Origin: Cystobasidiopsis lactophilus | Taxonomy: Eukaryota > Basidiomycota > Agaricostilbomycetes > Agaricostilbales > Chionosphaeraceae | DNA length: 64,000 nt | Assembly (NCBI GenBank): GCA_001599975.1 | Contig: BCIO01000006.1 | Location: 1,483,587 to 1,547,586 of the forward strand | Direction: 5' to 3' | In this document: piece after piece, positions 50,022 to 60,779 of the stretch | How positions within the stretch are numbered: the stretch's first letter is position 1 | Layout: each line of letters starts with the position of its first letter | Position numbers and translations under genes: made by a program | The notes under the pieces: generated by a model | The model's database searches: none | The model's input: the letters and a program-made list of their open reading frames with translations, nothing else | Told to the model about the DNA's origin: nothing

Positions 50022-50941
50022 ATGGGTGTCCCTGGCCCGAAGGCACTGCGGAAGAAAGCCAAGAAGTCGGCCGCTCGCCAGATCCGCGCTGGAGCGCCAG
50101 GCTCCAGCAAGCAGCTACGAAAAGCTGTCGAAGCTGACATGCGAGCCTCAAGAGTCAACAACATTCTCCAGAACACACACAGGGTGTGCGCCGACCACTT
50201 CAGATCCGGCTTCTGCCCTCGCCGCGAAAGCTGCCAATACGCGAATTCGCACGAGGAAGCGCCCCATGAGATCCGAGAGCGCCTCCTCTGTGCAACCGAA
50301 CAGCAAAAGGATACCGGACCTGCCGCAGCAAGGGATGCCGCTTCATCCGTAGGCACCTTCATCTAAACTTTTGCCCGGAGGAAACCTCATCGGAAGGCAA
50401 ACGCAGATGTCGCTGCTAAAAAAGGCCCTGATGTGAGCGCTTGGGATATATCTAGGAATCGAGCTTATTTCTTTCGCTCAACTGTTCACAGGGTGACCTC
50501 GATCGGCTTCAGCCGCCGAAGCCTCGGGCAGTGGCGACTTCAGCTCCTTCCTACTTGAAGAAGCTGATCAAGAGGAACACTGCTCCCTTGCCCACGAATA
50601 CCTCCGACAACCATGACGATATGAAAAGCACGCCTACGAAGTCCATGGGAACCAAAGCGGCCAGCCAGTCGAGCGGCTCCAAGGATGACACCGTCGACTG
50701 GGAATATGGTGGGTGACTTTGACTCCAAGCCGACACCAAGAGATGTTTTTGCTCATTCAAGTCCACAGAGATGCTCTCGATAGAGGTCGCCACCCTGAAA
50801 GAGCAGCTCGAGGCCAAGACGCGCGAGAACGACCGGCTCAAGATCAAGAAGCAGAAGTACAAGCAGCGCTGCAAGGCTCTTCGCGCCGTTATCTCTGAGA
50901 AGGAGAAGGCCGCTACCTGTGGGACTCGTTTGCTTCTATGA
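50022..50941 (+). CDS. Zinc-knuckle/coiled-coil family protein, copy A (frame broken once)
   Basis: First member of a five-gene family. A basic N-terminus (MGVPGPKALRKKAKKSAARQ) precedes finger 1 at 50187: C-ADHFRSGF-C-PRRES-C-QYANS-H. Twelve residues later is the first Cys of finger 2. The continuation of finger 2 (YRT-C-RSKG-C-RFI) is in another frame, and an intron (50349-50406) completes the final His codon, as in copies C-E. The shift lies around the A-run at 50305-50308, where one more A would give C-X10-C-X4-C-X3-H; it is either a real lesion or a base-calling error. Downstream exons are intact: a Lys/Ser-rich linker (50492-50708), then a coiled coil (IEVATLKEQLEAKTRENDRL) ending at 50941. 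Introns of 58, 59 and 60 nt. Confidence 0.65.
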
Positions 50942-51624
50942 ACGGGAATCAATCTCTTACCGAGTCGGTGGAACCATCTTCCCAGAGCTTGTGCTTATGT
51001 CAAGGAAGTCATCTGGCGCGTGGTGAGTTGGGTCCTGTCACTTCCACAAATGGGAAGCTTTTTGAAGTCATCTCACAGAGGAGCAAGGGCCTTGCCAACA
51101 TCGGGCTGGAAAAGGTGGAAAGTGGGTGGGGTAGACCGCCGCGGGAGCCTCGAGCTTTGCTTGCACTCATCCAAGCACATCTTACAATCACAACAATTCG
51201 ATTGTACGACGCGCTGAGCTCACTGCTGAGTTTGCCGCCATTCGCCACCGCGGCCTCGCCTTTTGCCTCCGCTCAGCCGACACTTGGCCAATGCTTTTCT
51301 GCCCTTTTCGAGCGGCGCAAGTGCCCTCAATAAGCTCTAGTGCACTGTTCGCGGATGGCTGCGTGAGGCACCTGCCCTAAGAATGCCCACTCCACTCTCC
51401 GCCGCCGTGCTTGAAGTCCGCCGCCCTTCGAAGCGGGACGAAGCTCTCCTTGCCGGACGTCTGTGAATCTGCTGCCTTTGCACCTCTTGTGATCTTAAGC
51501 CTATTCCACAAGTGATGCACGCCCAGAGCAAGGCGGCGGCTTCTGTTCTTTGTTGTCGGCGCGTCTGACAAATTTTGGCCGCTTCCCGTCCCCCTTGTCT
51601 CTCTGCCTTGCGGACCAGTCTTGC
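50942..51624. other. Spacer between cluster copies A and B
   Basis: No gene is supported. The sequence near 51230-51310 is rich in pyrimidines and could belong to the promoter of copy B. Confidence 0.4.
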
Positions 51625-53083
51625 ATGAAGGAGGAGGACTTTGGTGTCTGCTTGGCGCTCGCTAAGCATGGGAACTGTCCTCTGCGCTCGAAATGCCCTC
51701 AGATCGACTCGCACCAAACACCTTTGAACGAGCTTCGGGAAGCCAGCAAATGTCCGCCCGAGTCCTACGCCTCTATCAAAACGACTGGCACTTCCACTTG
51801 CCCAGATTGGGCCCGGTGCCCGTACATCCACGCTGCGGATCTGCTCGTTCCCGTGGCTCAGTTCAGCCAAGGCCAAGGGCCAAATCGTCTCAGCTCGGTT
51901 TGTGCTCTCCAGTCCTGTCCAGCATGGGTGTAACCAAGGCTAAGTTTGGCCCCATCAGGTGCTCAAGCGAGGCAAGTCGATCAAGGAAGCGAAGGACGAG
52001 GCGGAAAAGTTGAGGGGCGAAGTGTCGGAGCTGAACGCGACCCTTCAAAGCGTGCGGGCGGCCAAGGGCAAGGCGGTAGAGGCCAAGGTCAAAGCTCAAG
52101 AGGCCAAGGTCGAGGCAGAGGAGGCAAGAGCCAAAGCGGAGGAAGCGAGAGCCAAAGCGGAGAAGAGCGGCAAGGTTGCGCGTGATAGGGGAGACAGGCT
52201 CAAGGACAAGCTCCAAAAGGCTAACAAACAGGCCAGTGAAGCTGCAGGTACGCTTCATTGCTCTGGATCCTTGTGGCAACCAAGGTTTTGCGCTGACGCG
52301 GGTCAAATCGATACAGAGCGGGAAGCCGACCTGCAAGAGGAGCAGACCAAGCTGCGAGACGATGTTGCAAGACTGCTACAGCATCTCCGAAAGTCTCAGA
52401 AGCGAGTGCAAGCTCACGAGGATCTGGAGGAAGAAGTGCTCGCCCTTCGCCAGTTCAAAGACGACTCTCTGGATTTAGGCACGCAGGACGCCCAGGTCGA
52501 CCAGATCTTCAACCTCCAGGCTCAAGTCGTGCGCCTCACTCAAGAGCGACGAGACCTGGAAGAGCAGCTGGGCCAGGCCGAGAATGAAGAGATGCTCGAT
52601 AGCCTTCTCAAGATCAACGCCGAGCTCTCCCTCACCAACGCCAAATCGGCCGAAGTCTCGCGCGTCGCCAAGTTGCAGCGCGACAAGCACCGTGCTAAAG
52701 CCCAGCGGTTGCAGGCTCAAGTGGACGAACAGAAGTCGGCGGTTTCCGAACGTGACGCGTATAAGACCCAGCTGCAGGCGCTGCAAGATGCCTATCATGC
52801 ATTGGAAGTCAGGCACGAAGGCTTGAAGCTCGACCACGCCCAGCAGTTGAAGGCCAGCAAGAAGTCGTCGAGGAGGCAACGATCCTTCTCACCTCCGTCT
52901 TCATCCTCTTCATCGCCACCCTCTACTCCCCCTCCGCCAACAAAGTGCAAGACGAAGGCTTCCAGTGGAACGGGGGCGGATGGCAAAGCGGCCAAGAAGA
53001 GAAAGGGCAATAACCGGGTGCGCACTCCAACGCCACATCCTTTCAAGGCGCGAACCACGGTGCATGTAATCGAGCTCGACTAG
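51625..53083 (+). CDS. Zinc-knuckle/coiled-coil family protein, copy B (long coiled coil)
   Basis: Starts at 51625 (MKEEDFGV). Finger 1 is C-LALAKHGN-C-PLRSK-C-PQIDS-H, then 12 residues, then finger 2 with wider spacing: C-X14-C-PDWAR-C-PYI-H. Unlike the other copies the final His is encoded without an intron inside its codon. Introns lie at about 51898-51959 and 52248-52314. The rest is an unusually long coiled coil (about 270 residues), beginning with alternating Ala/Glu/Lys repeats (EEARAKA) and continuing LRDDVARLLQHLRKSQKRVQ, DQIFNLQAQVVRLTQERRDL and KHRAKAQRLQAQVDEQKSAV. It ends in a Ser/Pro-rich, basic tail (KSSRRQRSFSPPSSSS) that looks like a nuclear signal. Function unknown. Confidence 0.78.
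52085..52172 (+). repeat. Ala/Glu/Lys-rich short repeat in copy B
   Basis: Several near-identical units of about 21 nt encode AEEARAK-type heptads (KVEAEEARAKAEEARAKAE). The heptad period fits a single alpha helix or coiled coil. The repeat is specific to copy B in this cluster. Confidence 0.7.
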
Positions 53084-53163
53084 TCTAGGAAAAGCGCTTG
53101 TGAATTCATCTTGCTCTATATCATAAACACAATACAATCCGAAAAACCAAATACAAGCCCAAT

Positions 53164-55342
53164 CTAAACCGAATACCTGAAGTGGACATTTTCTGTGTGA
53201 AGCAACAGACAAGTCAGACCCAGCCAGTCGAGGAAAGGTAGCAGAGGAAGGAACATACGGCGATCAGTCATTCCGCTCTCCGCGTTCATTTCGCCAATGC
53301 GCTCCTGCTCCTCCTTCGAGATGCCAGCAGCTTGGGCAGCGCGGTCGCGGCGCCTGTTCTCGACGGCGTAGTAGATGCGCCAGCCGACCATGATGGCGAG
53401 CTCAAGGGCGTACATGGTGGCGCTGATGGCTATGCCCTTGAGGTAGCGCGGCGCATCGGTCTGGGTGGCGTCACCGAGTCAGCATACGCCCACCGGCGAC
53501 ACGTCAGAAAGGCGAGCTCACAGAACGGAAGATCTGGGGACCAATGCTGTTCCCGCAAGCGTAGGCGATGAACAAGAGGGAGAGAAGGACGGTCTTCTTG
53601 GTGCGGCCAGCCACATTGGAAGGAACAAACTGAGTTCCGACATCAGGTCTGATCAAGCTTGAATGAGGAAGCATAGTGCGTACAGTCTGAATAAGGAAGC
53701 CACTGATGCCACCGGTCTGGCCGAACAAGTACATGGCAAATTTTTGGTTGCGGTTGGACGAGGTGGTGGGGATGAAGGCGAGGAGGAACAGGCAGACAAT
53801 GCTGGGGATCAAAGCACCGAGCATGAACCAGACTGTTCGTATTTTGCGTCAGCATAGAGATTTGATGTGGAAGGAGGCAGATAACGAGGCAGATAACGAA
53901 CAGCGAATGCGGGTGTAGCGGAGGGTGAGGAAGCCAAGTGCCATGTACAGCCCAAACTGGTAGCAGTTGATGGGCAGGGTTCCACGAAGAATGGTGTCCA
54001 GCGCCGAGAAACCAAAGGACTTGATGACCAGGTTGCCTTTGCGCCCATCAAAATCAGTCCGAGACCGTAGACAGATGCCAAGGGGAGGAACTCACCAAAA
54101 GTCTGAACGCCAGAGTTGGGAAGGCCATTGACCAAAGTGGCGAAGAAGTAGAAGTAGGTCTGGGGGTCTTGGAACACCTCGCGGGCTTGGACCCAGTCCC
54201 AAGGCTGCTTTTCCCGGTCGGTGCCGGTCTTGTTGGCGACGGTGCGGGCGGCGGTCATGCGCTTCTCTTCTTCACTGAGCCATAAAACTTCACGAGGAGT
54301 ACCAAGAAACTGTTAAATCGCAACCGAGCAGTTATTTTCTGTTGGCAACGTCGCACAGCAGGAGACAGACGCACGAAAAGAGCCAAGATGCCGGTGAAGA
54401 TAGTGAAAGCGCCGAGGAAGTAGGAGATCCTATTCGCCAAAACCCAATGAGAACAGCTCTGGCTGTGGTTCAAGAGGGAAACCTACGAGCGCCAGGCACG
54501 GAGAGGATCGACAGCCTCGGCCTTCTTAGCGATGAAGTAGATGCAGATGTTGGAGATGGCGCCAAAGCTGAACGGCGCTGTGCCCCAAACCAAGCATCGT
54601 AGGGTGTGCTCCCGCTTCGTGTAGAAGGCGCCGGTGATAATGAGGAAAGCAGGTGCGATGGCGCATTCGCAGATACCTGTTCGATGCCCACCTCTCAATA
54701 TGACAGTTCGCCAAATCTGGAGCGTAGAACGAACCTTGGAAGAAGCGAAGAGCAGCGAGTTCAGCAAAAGTGTTGGAGACGCCAATGACGGTGACAATGA
54801 CGCCCCAAACGATCATGAGCGCGGCGACGCTGCGGCCAACGTGGGTGCGCTGCATGACCCAGTTGGCGGGGAACTCGGCGACCAAGTAGGCGATGAAGAA
54901 GAGCGTGGTGAGCATGGAGAACTGCTGGCCGACCAAGTGGGTGTCTTTGATCAGGCCGAAGGTTGCTTGCTGGGCTGTAGCGTGCCTTTTAATCAGCCCC
55001 AATTCTGGCTCCAGGCAGAAGAAAGCTTACATGTGGACGACTTGTCAGCTTGGACCAAGCCATAAGCGAGCCACAACATGGGAAGAAGGATGAGGTCCGT
55101 CTTCAGCCGAAGCCTGCTGAATTGGGCCGGAGTGTCTACGTCGCTCTTCGTCAGCTTCCACTAGATCAGCAACCAGCATATGACTCACACTGCAAGGTAG
55201 CTTCGATGGTATCGACGGCCACTTCCGAGACGAAAACTTTCGCCGCCTTATCGCTGGTGACCGAAGGCATGGCTTCTTCAGTTGAGCCGCTGACAGACCA
55301 GGCGAGCGTGTCCTTCTCGTTCAAAGTTGGTGAAGCAGACAT
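53164..55342 (-). CDS. MFS transporter, allantoate-permease (Dal5) type
   Basis: A plasma-membrane major-facilitator transporter of the anion:cation symporter group, which imports organic acids, ureido compounds or vitamins. The start at 55342 (MSASPTLNEKDTLAWSVSGS) is followed by a cytosolic N-terminus and the first helices (LILLPMLWLAYGLVQADKSS). Then come QQATFGLIKDTHLVGQQFSM, AYLVAEFPANWVMQRTHVGR, GICECAIAPAFLIITGAFYT, the central loop with REVFQDPQTYFYFFATLVNG, and the second half ending FRSTDAPRYLKGIAI, YALELAIMVGWRIYYAVENR and VHFRYSV at 53164. About nine short introns. The order of helices and the short motifs fit Dal5-like permeases. The cargo cannot be read. It lies between copies B and C of the zinc-knuckle family. 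Confidence 0.88.
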
Positions 55343-55662
55343 TGGGTACTATAGTCGATGGGCAGAGGGGCAAGTGGCAAAAAAGCAGCGAGCCAACAGT
55401 GATAGGGAGATGGCAGGGAGAGGATGTGATGCGAAGGGAAGGAAGAGACGCATTTTAAATGTCAGCAGGCGTGTTTACGACTCCCGCCAGACTGCCTATC
55501 GATTAAGCGCCGGCGGACCACAGAACGGGCCAAGGCGCATGTTGGCGGATTTACAGCAGGCGACGTTTTTCCCTTGTTCCGCTCCCAATCATTGTGCTCA
55601 AAAATGGTTTTCTTCCACTTGCTTGACACTGCCAAAGTCTGTTACGCGCGCAACGAACGAAG
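55343..55662. promoter_or_regulatory. Divergent promoter region (transporter / GST)
   Basis: The 320-base spacer lies between the start codons of the MFS transporter and the GST, so both promoters must be here. No clear motif is visible. Confidence 0.45.
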
Positions 55663-56632
55663 ATGGTGTCCACTGCTGCTTTCAAATCCGACGAGTTTGC
55701 CACCGATGCCTCCGGTTTCCGAGTTTATGGCTACATGAGGTCTCCTCGCTGCTTGGCGGCTATGGTAGGCAATCTCCCAAATACCTGCTTGTTATGGGAA
55801 AGTGGGATTCATGGGCATGACAGGTCGTCGCGGACTACTGCGGCTCTCCCGCCCTGCTTGTCGACACCCACCCGGCCGGCTCCAAAGATGGCTTCTTCGA
55901 CGAGCCCTACCACAGCCACTTTCCCTTCGGCAAAGTCCCAGGCTTCTCGCACGGCGACTTTTTCCTAGCCGAGACGCCCGCCATCTTGTCCTACATCGCT
56001 TCCGTTCACGACCCCTTGAAACTGGCTGGTGACACTCGCCAGAGCAGGGCGGAGATTCTGTCTTGGGTGTCTTGGGCTACCTCGATGGCATTTCCAACTC
56101 TTCAGCCTTGGTATGTTGTCCTTTGCCATTGCACAGATTGACTTTTGGGCTCAAGGCGTGGCAGGCTGGACCCCATTCGGAACCATGGTTTCTACAACTA
56201 CGATGCTGTGGCTGCCGCCCGTCGTGCTACTTATGACCTCTTTGCCGTGCTCGATTCGATCCTCGCCACCCGCACTTACTTGGTCGGCAACCAGCTGTCC
56301 TTGGGCGACGTCATGGTAGCTGCCGTTGTTGGGCGAGCTTGCACTTTCGTACAGTCCCTCTCTTTCTCATTAAAACTCCCCTTGCTCAATCTGTTTGGTG
56401 TCCTTGGGCCATGCAGATCTTCGACGCCAAGTTCCGATCTGCCCATCCTCACGTCTTCCGCCACTACGAGCTGATCGCTTCCTGCCCGACGTACGAGAAG
56501 TATGCTGGACCCATCCGCTACATCGAAGAGGAGAACGTGCCTCCAGCTGCTGCGGCCTGGAAGAGCAAGGTGGAGGCTGAGAAGAGACTGGAGCTGGCGA
56601 ACCAGCGATGGGTGCCAGAGCTGCTCTACTAG
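55663..56632 (+). CDS. Glutathione S-transferase, elongation-factor-1-gamma-like
   Basis: A glutathione transferase of the EF1Bgamma/phi-like type; conjugates glutathione or acts as a stabilising domain. The start at 55663 reads MVSTAAFKSDEFATDASGFR. The thioredoxin-like part has KVPGFSHGDFFLAETPAILS (the cis-Pro and Glu-Thr/Ser of the GSH site). After an intron near 56110-56160 the helical part gives YDLFAVLDSILATRTYLVGN, QLSLGDVMVAAVVGRA, then after another intron FDAKFRSAHPHVFRHYELIA and the end RWVPELLY. It has no EF1G C-terminal domain, so it is a free GST. Divergent from the transporter; the pair could be co-expressed for detoxification, which is an inference. Confidence 0.85.
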
Positions 56633-56791
56633 ATCGCCTGATTGTTACTGTTTATACGGTCTGTGTGCTTCATATGGTTCATCTCTACCTTGCAAACCGC
56701 TGTTTTCACCATTTGCCACCCATCGCCCACTTCTTCCTTCGCGCGACGCGTTTTGGTCCTGCCCGTCCATCGCCTTGTTCAAAGTCCTTAT

Positions 56792-57710
56792 ATGCCCACA
56801 ATGTCCCCACCTAAACTATGTTGGACGTATGTCGACACGGGCTCATGCGCAGAAGGCAGCGCCTGCGCCAAGAAGGCGTCGCACAAGATGAAGTCGTCGG
56901 AGCTGCGGCTTCTCGCCCTTTGCGCCGAAGAGAAGGTTTTTGGGGTGGGCAAGTGCACCAAACCGCGCTGCAAGTTCTATCGTGAGCGCTGGGCCTTTGC
57001 AAATCCATGTCGGGGACGAGCGGCTCAAAGACCAGGGCGACAGACTCGCTGCCTCAGTTGGCCCAGCATCGGAACAAGGTGCGCCTTGGAATCCCCTTGT
57101 TTTGGGCGCCCGCTGATGTTCATGGAGCAACAGAAGAACATGCCAGCACACCTGCTAGATCCCAAGAGCCCCAAGAAGAAGTCTTCATCCAAGAAGCGGC
57201 CGGCAGAGCAGTCTGGGGAGCAATTGCAGCTGACCTCCCTTCAAGCCGAGTTAGAAGCGGCGAATGGTGTGTCCTCTCCCCTCCTCTGTGCCTAGATTCA
57301 GTGCATTGATCCTATTTGTTGGACTCACAGCACGGGCAGACGCGTCAGAAGCGGCTCAGGCCATGCTCCGCACCAAGCTCGAGTCCCGCAAGACCAGGCT
57401 CGAGTCCCGCAGGGCCAAGATCCGCGTGCTCAAGCAGAAACTAGCCGACGCCCAGCAAGAACCACCACCACCACCGGCACGAGACGAGGACACCTACGAA
57501 GTGGACGACCGGCCCATCAAGCTGGCCAGCAAGCTCGAAGGCCTGGTCGTCGACTTGACGCTGCAAATCATCGCTTTGAAGAAGGATGTAGGACCACTGG
57601 CGCAGGCCATTGCGAAGGAAGCGGATAGAAAGAGTGAAGCACGGGGGCCGATGGCGGTGGACCAGATGGCGGTGGGACAGTTGATCTCACGGCAGAGCAT
57701 GGATGGCTGA
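56792..57710 (+). CDS. Zinc-knuckle/coiled-coil family protein, copy C
   Basis: Starts at 56792 (MPTMSPPK) or, equally, the ATG nine bases later. Finger 1 is C-WTYVDTGS-C-AEGSA-C-AKKAS-H; 12 residues later finger 2 is C-AEEKVFGVGK-C-TKPR-C-KFY-H, its His codon being split by a 49-nt intron (56982-57030). A further intron (57080-57132) leads to a Lys-rich segment (SPKKKSSSKKRPAEQSG) and a Leu-containing helix (LTSLQAELEAAN). After another intron comes LESRKTRLESRRAKIRVLKQ, a Pro patch and EGLVVDLTLQIIALKKDVGP, so the coiled coil is shorter than in B, D and E. The stop is at 57708-57710. It is closest in order to D and E. Function unknown. Confidence 0.78.
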
Positions 57711-58245
57711 CGGCTGGCCCGTCGTGTTCTTGTGAGGCACCTCCCTTTTTGCTCACCAGTCTTCATTAAAGCCAATAAGTTGTTGGGCAGACTGTTTTGG
57801 GCGGTGGGACGGCAATCGGATCTTTTGAACCGGTGGCGACCAGTCAATTTGTAGCACGGATGTCCCCTGCATTGTCTCTTCTCACAGCCACCACAGGCTA
57901 TTTGTACTTCAAGTGAACCGAAACTTGGCAGAGAGGCACAGAGAGCTCAGTTCTGTCCGCCCATAAGTTGCCGCCACGGCCCTCGATTCCCAGGATGGCG
58001 GGTGGCGAGGGCGCTTTTCTCTCCCAAACGTTGAGCTGGCCTTCGCATCGCGCGCAATTTACATTCATATTTGCTTTGTCAAGACGTCAAGATAGCACCA
58101 GAGTTGGAGCGCCTCCCGGCCATCGCGGCGGCTCGAAGATGGGTCGGAGTGGACGAAACAGCTTGGGAGCTTCTCGTGCGTTGATTGCCCTACCTTCCCA
58201 TCTTGAAGCCCTCGCTGAACCCATGTTCGAACAACAGTGGTTCCA
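57711..58245. other. Spacer between cluster copies C and D
   Basis: No gene is supported. These 535 bases should contain the 3' end of copy C and the promoter of copy D. Confidence 0.4.
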
Positions 58246-59336
58246 ATGAGGCCAAAGCAGGCCAAGTTCTGTTGGGCTTGGTTCAATACTGGCCAGTGCA
58301 AGTTCGGCGAGGCCTGCGGCAAGAGCCTATCCCACAGCTTGTCCGCCGTCACCTTGAAGAGCCTTGGCAGCTGCGTCAATGAGAGCACCTTTGGCGACGG
58401 CGCGTGTAAGGAACCGAACTGTCGCTATTTCCGTAAGTCCCGTCATGCTGATTTCCGAGTCAGGATGTTGCTGACCGGCCTTTAAGATCAGATCACAAGG
58501 CGGCGATCAAATCGCACAAGCTATACGTAGGCTCATTATTCCATTGGACCGAAAAAGGATTTCATTGAAGGGTGCTTTCAGGCCGAGATGGATGTGATCG
58601 TTGCCAAGTCGGTAGCGGTGGCGAAAGCAACTTTGGAACCGGATCATGCGAGTATGCTGAAAGAGCCCACCAGCAACAGAAACGATTCTTCCAACAACTC
58701 GTCGGGGCCTATCAGCAAACGCAAAGCTCCCACTCCAGTCTCGCCATCGGAGGAGCCGGAAAGCAAGAGGCCCCGGGCTTCCGTGGACTCCAGTGGTGCC
58801 CGTAGCAGCACCTTGATCGATCCTGAAGATGGTAAGTCGAGCTCATCTGGCTTCTTCGCTGGTCCATCTTAACCAAATAGCTTGCAGGAGTGGCCGCCCG
58901 TGAATCGGCGCTGGCCCAACTGCGTCTTCAGGTGCAAGACTTGCAAGGGCAGCTGGTTGCTGCCAAGAGGACGGCCACTCTATATGAGGTCTATGTTGCA
59001 GAGCTCGGGCAAGACGTGGCCAAGCTCTCCGTCGCCCGGCAAGAAGCGATGAGCCTTGCCGCAGCTCGAGCGGCGGAACTCGACCAGGTTCGCCGGAGAC
59101 TGGTGACGGTCAAGACGGAGGTGGTAGACACGCAGAACCTGTTGGCGGAGGCACAAGCGCAAGTGGCGTCACCCCAGCCTAGCCATCAGCTGGCACCGAA
59201 CACCTCAGCAGACGCCTTATCCAGGGTGGAAGATAACTTGACCTCGCTGTCGGCCCAGTTCTCGAACGCTTTGGCGGAACTGTCCGCTGAGATTGCGGAG
59301 CTCCGTCGTCGCAGTGCTTCGAGGACTATCTCTTGA
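58246..59336 (+). CDS. Zinc-knuckle/coiled-coil family protein, copy D
   Basis: Starts at 58246 (MRPKQAKF). Finger 1 is C-WAWFNTGQ-C-KFGEA-C-GKSLS-H, then 12 residues, then C-VNESTFGDGA-C-KEPN-C-RYF-H. The His codon is split by a 59-nt intron (58433-58491), and the frame continues HKAAIKSHKLY, then across another intron EMDVIVAKSVAVAKATLEPD. A Ser/Asn/Pro-rich linker (KRKAPTPVSPSEEPESKRPR) with a nuclear-signal look precedes the coiled coil LAQLRLQVQDLQGQLVAAKR, LGQDVAKLSVARQEAMSLAA and LTSLSAQFSNALAELSAEIA, ending RRRSASRTIS at 59336. It is most like copy E, with which it shares the RL..QVQ.L...L and KLS.AR.E segments. Confidence 0.8.
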
Positions 59337-59676
59337 GTGTTGCCCATGAACGTTCAAAGTGCAATCCGTGTGCGCTCTGAAGGGTTCTGTGAGTATTTGT
59401 GGCCCTGTCTATATCAAGTCTCGAATTGCAACTTCTGCGCAACGCGATGACGAAAATTGCACCTCGAGAGCGAGCGAGCTTGTCCAACCTTCCCCTCCTT
59501 TCAACCGTCGAAAATATGCATGTTCTTGACAACTGAATGCTACGCCGCTTCTTACTTGCGACCGTATGCCGTTTTCAGCGATTTCCGCCCTCGGCCTCGA
59601 GCTGCCTTCTTGTCTTTGTTGTGCTGAAACTTTTTGGCTTTGGTGCTTTACAATTTTTTGGACCCAAACTATCATC
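59337..59676. other. Spacer between cluster copies D and E
   Basis: These 340 bases hold no gene that I can support; the T-rich stretch before 59676 fits an upstream region of copy E. Confidence 0.4.
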
Positions 59677-60779
59677 ATGCCCAAAAAGCACATACGACAG
59701 TGCTGGGGCTTTTTCAAATCAGGACGCTGCCATCTCGGCGAAACATGCGGCAAACTAGCAAGTCACGTCTTTTCGGCGGCTCAGCTGAAAGAGAACGCCA
59801 GCTGTCCCAAGGAGACTGCTTCAAGCGACTGCCAGGAGCCCAATTGCCGTCATTATCGTATGTCTTTCCATTCGTTGCTCTGGGACACGCTCAGGAATTC
59901 CGCTTTAGACCTTCGGCCCCAAAGCAGCAGTCACAAGTCCTCCGTGCGTTGATGTTTGTAGTTTATGATGCGCCAGTCTGCTGTCCTCTCACATCACGGT
60001 CAGGCGGATATGGAAAAGGCACTCCAATGGCTACAGCAAGAGGAAGATGGTGCCCGAAACGGTAGGGGATTCCTTAAATTTAACCCTCAAGAGGCTCAAA
60101 CCTGAATCAGATCCATCCACAGGCTCTGATACCAAGACACAGAAGAAGCGGTCCGCAGAGGTTGAAGTCAAGCAAGAGAAGCAGCAGCGAAAGAAGCGAC
60201 GACTCGAAGAGGAGCGAAAGTCACTCACCAGCGAGATCATGAGCGTGGTCGAATCCGAAGATGGTATGATGGGGTCAATGAGCCATGTCATGTCCCTCGT
60301 GCTCATCTAAATTTGCAGACACATCCCAAGCAGACGACCATGAAGACCTCAAGGCAATCGAGCTGGATAGACTGCGACAGCAAGTGCAAAGTCTTACAAC
60401 CAAGCTTGCAGAAGCAGAGGCTAGAGTGTCTAGGCGGGATGCTCGCATTGGACAGTTGAAAGCTGAGCTGGCCAAGCTCTCGACTGCCCGTGACGAAATC
60501 AAGCGTCGCCTTGCAGCCCGCGACAACGACGTGGACCAAATGCAGCAGTATGTGAAAGATGCGGAAGAGGCGCTTGCTGAAGTGCGGGCGCAATGGAAGG
60601 AGGTTCAAGCTACGGTCAACATGCCACCTTCTCCGCGCAACTCTCTCGACAAGTCGGCAGTCATCTCCTCTGACACCATCGACGAGCTTCAAGATGATGT
60701 GAGGGCTATGCTGGAGACATTGGGCAGGTTCTCAGGCAGGATCACGGAAATCAAACGTTTGAAGGATATGGAGGAGTAA
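59677..60779 (+). CDS. Zinc-knuckle/coiled-coil family protein, copy E
   Basis: Starts at 59677 (MPKKHIRQ). Finger 1 is C-WGFFKSGR-C-HLGET-C-GKLAS-H, then 12 residues, then C-PKETASSD-C-QEPN-C-RHY-H, whose His codon is split by a 51-nt intron (59858-59908). Further introns (about 59949-60006, 60061-60121, 60265-60318) join LRPQSSSHKSS, ADMEKALQWLQQEEDGARNG, a Lys-rich stretch (KTQKKRSAEVEVKQEKQQRK) and the coiled coil LDRLRQQVQSLTTKLAEAEA, IGQLKAELAKLSTARDEIKR, VDQMQQYVKDAEEALAEVRA. The end, DDVRAMLETLGRFSGRITEI, resembles copy D's Leu-rich tail. The stop is at 60777-60779. Function unknown. Confidence 0.8.

Follow-up and report, generated by a model that had tools for sequence, protein, structure and literature searches.

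The window (the whole stretch of DNA that was analysed, 64 kb) contains a cluster of duplicated genes for divergent tandem CCCH zinc finger proteins, at least three of which have predicted coiled coils and which probably act as multivalent RNA-binding regulators through the formation of oligomers.

Organization of the gene cluster

A six-frame motif scan of the 64-kb window recovered five copies, all on the forward strand, at coordinates 50022, 51625, 56792, 58246 and 59677, in full agreement with the original prediction. The motif of the first finger (F1), C-X8-C-X5-C-X5-H, occurs in the six frames of the window at exactly these five places and nowhere else, compared with a mean of 0.115 occurrences in 200 simulated first-order Markov windows, and F1 followed by 12 residues and a further Cys was likewise observed five times against a simulated mean of 0.01; a chance origin of the motifs was rejected on these counts. 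Two genes outside the family, both correctly anticipated, are located between copies 2 and 3, represented by part of an MFS transporter gene (54526..54999, reverse strand; PF07690, E = 5.1e-10) and the GST C-terminal domain of a second gene (56145..56471, forward strand; PF00043 (GST_C), E = 2.7e-7). An Rfam scan of the window yielded 0 matches.

Four of the five window copies have complete open models with splice sites, which were assembled by hand and contain 2-4 introns each. Intron length, like the size of the genome, would fit a fungal origin. Copy 2 (g2; 51625..53083, forward strand) comprises three exons encoding 442 amino acids, with finger 1 at 51649-51714, a second finger (F2) that is free of introns, and a long Lys/Ala/Glu-rich predicted coiled coil. 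The remaining models, all on the forward strand, are copy 3 (g3; 56801..57710, four exons, 242 amino acids, finger 1 at 56819-56884), copy 4 (g4; 58246..59336, four exons, 306 amino acids, finger 1 at 58270-58335) and copy 5 (g5; 59677..60779, five exons, 291 amino acids, finger 1 at 59701-59766). Another in-frame ATG is present in g3 at 56792. In these three hand models, a phase-1 intron splits finger 2 (56982-57043 in g3, 58433-58491 in g4 and 59858-59908 in g5), and the final His of F2, which lies outside the open frame, is reached by splicing to exon 2 (57044-57078, 58492-58526 and 59909-59943, respectively). As intron positions are common to g3, g4 and g5 and the second exon is exactly 35 nt long in each, these copies look like tandem duplicates.

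Copy 1 (g1; 50022..50941, forward strand), which was delineated by the motif scan with exon borders set by hand, is not intact in the present assembly. Finger 1 (50187-50252) and finger 2 (starting at 50291) are encoded in different frames, and an intron bringing them into one frame was rejected because the 38 nt between them contain no GT and a GT-AG intron does not fit. The later exons of copy 1 are open, including a predicted exon from 50407 and exons from 50492 and 50769, with a stop codon at 50939-50941.

Additional paralogues and coiled coils

Six-frame searches with five members identified two further copies, C4A and C4B, in tandem on contig C4, which raises the family to at least seven copies in the genome, with some of the search links being weak (E = 0.041 for the link from copy 2 to copy 1, for instance). 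A family confined to the cluster was rejected on account of these two copies; the predicted family of genes with paired zinc-finger motifs is genuine, but it extends beyond five genes. In a single hhalign comparison, the C4 and cluster finger pairs matched with E = 1.4e-13. Both C4A and C4B join the finger pair to a body of TPR repeats and a J domain and contain the HPD motif; the DnaJ model (PF00226) scored 28.7 bits in C4A against a cut-off of 27.8, and 26.3, just under it, in C4B.

Coiled coils were sought with a home-made heptad score, the significance of which was taken from the number of 300 shuffles that reached the observed score. This was the case for none of the shuffles of g2 and g5, one of g4 and 13 of the last exon of copy 1; g3 (57/300), C4A (147/300) and C4B (257/300) were not significant. 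A second, different scan gave a coiled-coil signal in g2 and g5 only. Coiled coils had been predicted in all five cluster members, and such a segment is supported by these scores in g2, g4 (from about residue 160) and g5 (from about residue 155), is suggestive in copy 1 and is not significant in g3.

Finger geometry and relationship to CCCH zinc fingers

F1 is C-X8-C-X5-C-X5-H in all five window copies, and the distance of 12 residues from F1 to the next Cys is equally constant (5/5), as originally predicted, although in copy 1 this Cys is in the frame of F1 and F2 sits in the other. F2 reads C-X10-C-X4-C-X3-H in g3 and g4, C-X8-C-X4-C-X3-H in g5 and C-X15-C-X5-C-X3-H in g2, which retains the general form of the predicted C-X8-14-C-X4/5-C-X3-H but places its first spacing slightly off. 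All eight ligand positions together with Leu37, Glu46, Ser29 and Gly16 are invariant in the alignment of the six intact pairs.

The CCCH zinc finger is a well-known, usually RNA-binding fold with a usual last spacing of C-X3-H, and the CCHC zinc knuckle has the pattern C-X2-C-X4-H-X4-C. The ligand order and spacing observed here depart from the latter and are those of CCCH fingers, and the Pfam matches listed for sequences with these fingers (E up to 1) include no CCHC model. The term zinc knuckle, under which the fingers had been described, was therefore wrong. A profile of the six intact pairs searched against the PDB matched CPSF30 (E = 2.3e-4), a C3H1 protein (3.5e-4), TIS11d (3.7e-4), TTP (1.8e-3) and Yth1 (2e-3), and 28 of the 31 matches at E<=10 had names recognised as those of CCCH proteins. 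TIS11d was still matched by a profile built from the cluster rows alone (E = 4.2e-4). When non-ligand columns were permuted (one permutation, in which one of the eight ligand columns lost its invariance after realignment), the CCCH matches were lost and GLI1 was the sole match (E = 0.28). In the printed profile alignments, the F1 His is not aligned with the His of CPSF30 or TTP, and the first Cys of F2 is unmatched in those of TIS11d and TTP.

According to the available part of PMC2873481, CCCH fingers fall within the range C-X4-15-C-X4-6-C-X3-H and carry at least two of four marker residues at C1+3, C2-2, C3-3 and C3+2. After splicing, F2 fits this range in all six intact pairs, and the Cys spacings of F1 lie within it in 7/7 copies, each with a last spacing of X5 instead of X3. 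At least two markers are present in F1 of all seven copies and in F2 of four of the six intact pairs, the exceptions being g2 with one and g5 with none. Pfam CCCH models scored the family below cut-off only (best PF00642, 14.6 vs 20.5 bits), and a zf-CCCH search of the same genome returned 20 matches at E<=10, loci whose motif context was viewed by script and which included copies 1 and 4 as family members (E = 0.33 and 1.13). By profile similarity, and in part by ligand spacing, the fingers are classified as a divergent tandem CCCH pair related to pairs of the CPSF30/TIS11/TTP type.

Search for relatives

Protein searches covering 5.8 billion proteins, with a reach mainly to close relatives, revealed no convincing relative outside the genome itself. 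For g4, no protein at E<=1 was found among the 8000 candidates scored, which coiled-coil words may have exhausted, and residues 1-66 of C4B retrieved no candidate among the 5.8 billion proteins. With the profile of the C4 pair, 7999 proteins were scored and one reached E<=0.001; this match, to a TPR repeat protein, covers 29% of the query and was judged generic. Two weak NCBIfam families, each in one of six members, were taken as chance matches, and a description of the family was absent from the literature matches listed. With its combination of CCCH pair and coiled coil, it appears to be an unnamed family with a known kind of finger, not a new kind of system. In the libraries searched, no named family with the exact layout was present, as originally predicted; a known family of the same spacing was found by half, in that the superfamily is described and the F1 spacing is reported in the available part of a Brassica rapa survey (PMC6307296).

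Proposed function

The most likely role of these proteins would be that of RNA-binding regulators that self-assemble through their coiled coils, with RNA binding by the finger pairs made plausible by analogy to related CCCH proteins. Each finger would bind one zinc via Cys3His, and single-stranded RNA would be the target of the pair, with a protein partner as the less likely option. Additional affinity for nucleic acids or import into the nucleus could come from the basic linker. Through their coiled coils the paralogues could form homo- or hetero-oligomers, giving rise to multivalent RNA-binding regulators. The C4 relatives may use their J domain to recruit Hsp70 to RNA-protein complexes of this kind.

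Possibly, the CCCH fold has instead become a protein-protein module, with coiled-coil scaffolds and C4 co-chaperones that make no contact to RNA. The protein-binding TPR and J domains of the C4 relatives would be in keeping with this, as would the Lys at the C3+2 aromatic/Gln position in F1 of g3-g5 and the lack of all four markers in F2 of g5, but the C3+2 aromatic is kept in both fingers of the C4 copies and in F2 of g2, g3 and g4, and the profile comes closest to CCCH pairs that bind RNA. RNA-binding regulators that oligomerize remain our preferred reading. Its extension to a single network is rather doubtful: an unnamed tandem CCCH module with constant spacings (X7/8-X5-X5, a 12-residue link, X8-15/X4-5/X3) would be common to a diversifying coiled-coil array and a TPR/J-domain co-chaperone pair, and RNA-binding oligomers would come together with a recruiter of Hsp70 on shared RNA-protein assemblies.

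That the copies are decaying or idle duplicates on the way to becoming pseudogenes, with no present common role, is improbable. Copy 1 is out of frame between its fingers, and the four pairs of cluster genes that were compared have a low identity of 25-32% across their aligned length. However, the other four copies have intact models, none of the ligands varies among the six intact pairs, and pN is lower than pS both in these four cluster pairs and in the C4 pair (e.g. g4/g5, 0.477 vs 0.729), a weak indication with synonymous change near saturation. Descent from retroelement Gag-like proteins with zinc knuckle and coiled coil, which had its only support in the earlier use of the former term, is extremely improbable and was rejected on ligand spacing (CCCH, not CCHC), introns (2-4 per model, positions shared in g3-g5) and profile matches, with no retroelement family among the Pfam matches listed for sequences that contain the fingers.

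If expressed and able to bind RNA, the family would represent an added lineage of tandem CCCH proteins that lies under Pfam cut-offs and has a displaced F1 His, and the CCCH-TPR-J combination could tie RNA regulation to Hsp70. The sub-threshold scores suggest that counts of CCCH proteins at Pfam cut-offs can miss whole families.

Comparison with known systems

TIS11/TTP proteins contain two C-X8-C-X5-C-X3-H fingers that are 18 residues apart, with a YKTEL-like lead-in before each. The present proteins resemble them (PDB 1rgo, 1m9o) in that a pair of CCCH fingers makes up a single small module, and the profile match spans profile positions 6-66. In contrast, F1 ends in C-X5-H, the link comprises 12 residues, lead-ins are absent from the alignment and coiled coils come after the fingers, which sets the family outside the usual TIS11/TTP definition. 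CPSF30/Yth1 proteins have five CCCH fingers and are not known to carry a coiled-coil tail of the present sort. Of this group (PDB 2rhk, 7zgp), CPSF30 provided the best profile match, and the printed alignment to 2rhk includes an F2-like C-X8-C-X4-C-X3-H finger; each of the present models has one finger pair, in contrast to the five fingers by which CPSF30/Yth1 is usually defined.

The available part of the Brassica rapa survey lists C-X8-C-X5-C-X5-H, the same spacing as in F1, as a novel CCCH motif of rare occurrence, and that part contains no described pair of the present geometry or coiled-coil family (PMC6307296). For the C4 pair, orthology to TcZC3HTTP of Trypanosoma cruzi is not claimed. 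The C4 proteins differ from it in having two fingers and TPR repeats; both combine C3H and DnaJ domains in one protein, and TcZC3HTTP is reported as an RNA-binding protein in the portion of that study available (PMC10913370).

Organization of the cluster

The source genome comprises 22.1 Mb on eight contigs, of which the window covers C6:1483587-1547586. A six-frame scan of the window with the finger 1 spacing C-X8-C-X5-C-X5-H matched the five plus-strand sites at which the original prediction had placed members of one family (copies 1-5, at 50022, 51625, 56792, 58246 and 59677) and no others. Two hundred simulated windows of the same first-order make-up gave a mean of 0.115 matches, and of 0.01 when 12 residues and a further Cys were appended, against five observed in both cases, which rules out a chance origin of the motifs. 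The cluster contains four intact copies and one that is broken. In copy 1, finger 1 (50187-50252) is read in one frame and finger 2, starting at 50291, in another, and the 38 nt between them lack any GT, so that no GT-AG intron fits there. The downstream exons of copy 1 are open, and it represents either a gene broken by a recent loss or an assembly error.

Predicted models of copies 2-5, built by hand on splice sites, encode 442, 242, 306 and 291 residues, respectively. Copies 3-5 have a common phase-1 intron, located three residues past the last Cys of finger 2, and an exon 2 of exactly 35 nt. The final His of finger 2 is therefore supplied by exon 2, and the finger ends in C-X3-H once spliced, a feature that the unspliced open frame alone does not reveal. 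Copy 2 has no intron at this site and carries both fingers within exon 1. A 29-nt stretch in the last exons of copies 3 (57433-57461), 4 (59017-59045) and 5 (60469-60497), 69-76% identical to that of copy 4, reflects a shared ancestry that reaches past the fingers.

The coiled coils originally ascribed to all five copies hold for copies 2, 4 and 5; copy 1 ends in a possible short one, with 13 of 300 shuffles reaching its score. Three direct repeats of 21 nt, or seven residues, lie within the copy 2 coiled coil (52060-52122; 76% identity to the first repeat), giving it the appearance of having expanded through heptad duplication.

Relatives on a second contig

Searches with five members as queries raised the genome total to at least seven copies, including a tandem pair on contig C4 near 1.333 and 1.335 Mb (C4A and C4B; 361 and 356 residues in nine exons each, as modelled by hand, with the last exon of C4A uncertain). 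Their finger pairs are homologous to those of the cluster (profile comparison, E 1.4e-13, spanning both fingers) and are followed by a stretch without significant heptad signal, TPR repeats (PF00515 in C4B, E 8.5e-8; PF13432 in C4A, 6e-8) and a J domain with HPD. The C4A and C4B proteins are 60% identical, and their genes are nearly saturated for synonymous change (dS about 2.1). Roughly 205 nt upstream of the two genes (C4:1335460-1335668 and C4:1333222-1333426) are 96% identical and occur only at these two places in the genome search; gene conversion may have homogenized this upstream part during the divergence of the coding parts. An adjoining stretch of about 1.1 kb is also duplicated (L013:54-1138 and L013:2320-3399 within this C4 locus; 71% nucleotide identity), so the locus seems prone to tandem duplication.

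Identity of the fingers

Pfam CCCH models matched the finger-bearing sequences below threshold only, none reaching the cut-off. A profile of the six intact pairs (copies 2-5, C4A and C4B; copy 1 excluded) retrieved 31 different PDB sequences (E<=10), of which 28 are CCCH proteins judged by name, the others being less tellingly named ('cytoplasmic zinc-finger protein', OTTHUMP00000018578 and KIAA1064). The top matches were CPSF30 (2.3e-4), a C3H1-type protein (3.5e-4), TIS11d (3.7e-4), TTP (1.8e-3) and Yth1 (2e-3). The four cluster rows by themselves retrieved TIS11d (4.2e-4) and TTP (2.9e-3) among ten PDB matches at E<=1, which included an unrelated lipocalin at 0.65. In a single permutation that fixed the eight ligand columns and shuffled the other ungapped ones, and whose realignment upset one ligand column, GLI1 (0.28) was the sole match at E<=10. 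As the CCCH matches were lost, kinship seems to extend beyond Cys spacing. Against this kinship, the printed profile alignments leave the finger 1 His unpaired with known His residues, and the first finger 2 Cys unpaired with that of TIS11d and TTP.

Four marker residues serve as an acceptance criterion for CCCH motifs in Kramer et al. (PMC2873481). At least two of these four residues occur in finger 1 of all seven copies and in finger 2 of four of six (one in copy 2, none in copy 5; copy 1 excluded).

Proposed function and comparison with known proteins

The fingers would bind zinc and the finger pairs RNA, and the proteins may oligomerize. Basic stretches (K[KR]x[KR] in copies 2, 4 and 5; absent from copy 3, C4A and C4B) could carry them into the nucleus. 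Position C3+2 is Lys in finger 1 of copies 3-5 but remains aromatic or Gln in finger 2 of five of the six intact copies, which suggests that copies 3-5 may bind RNA mainly via finger 2 or have switched partner.

The C4 proteins point to a possible connection with Hsp70. TcZC3HTTP of Trypanosoma cruzi is reported to combine C3H and DnaJ parts (PMC10913370), so this combination does occur in a protein that binds RNA, with no orthology to the C4 pair implied. No description of the finger family was found in the open-access literature searched; the finger 1 spacing itself is already in print for Brassica rapa (PMC6307296), and we regard the family as a divergent form of the tandem-CCCH proteins.
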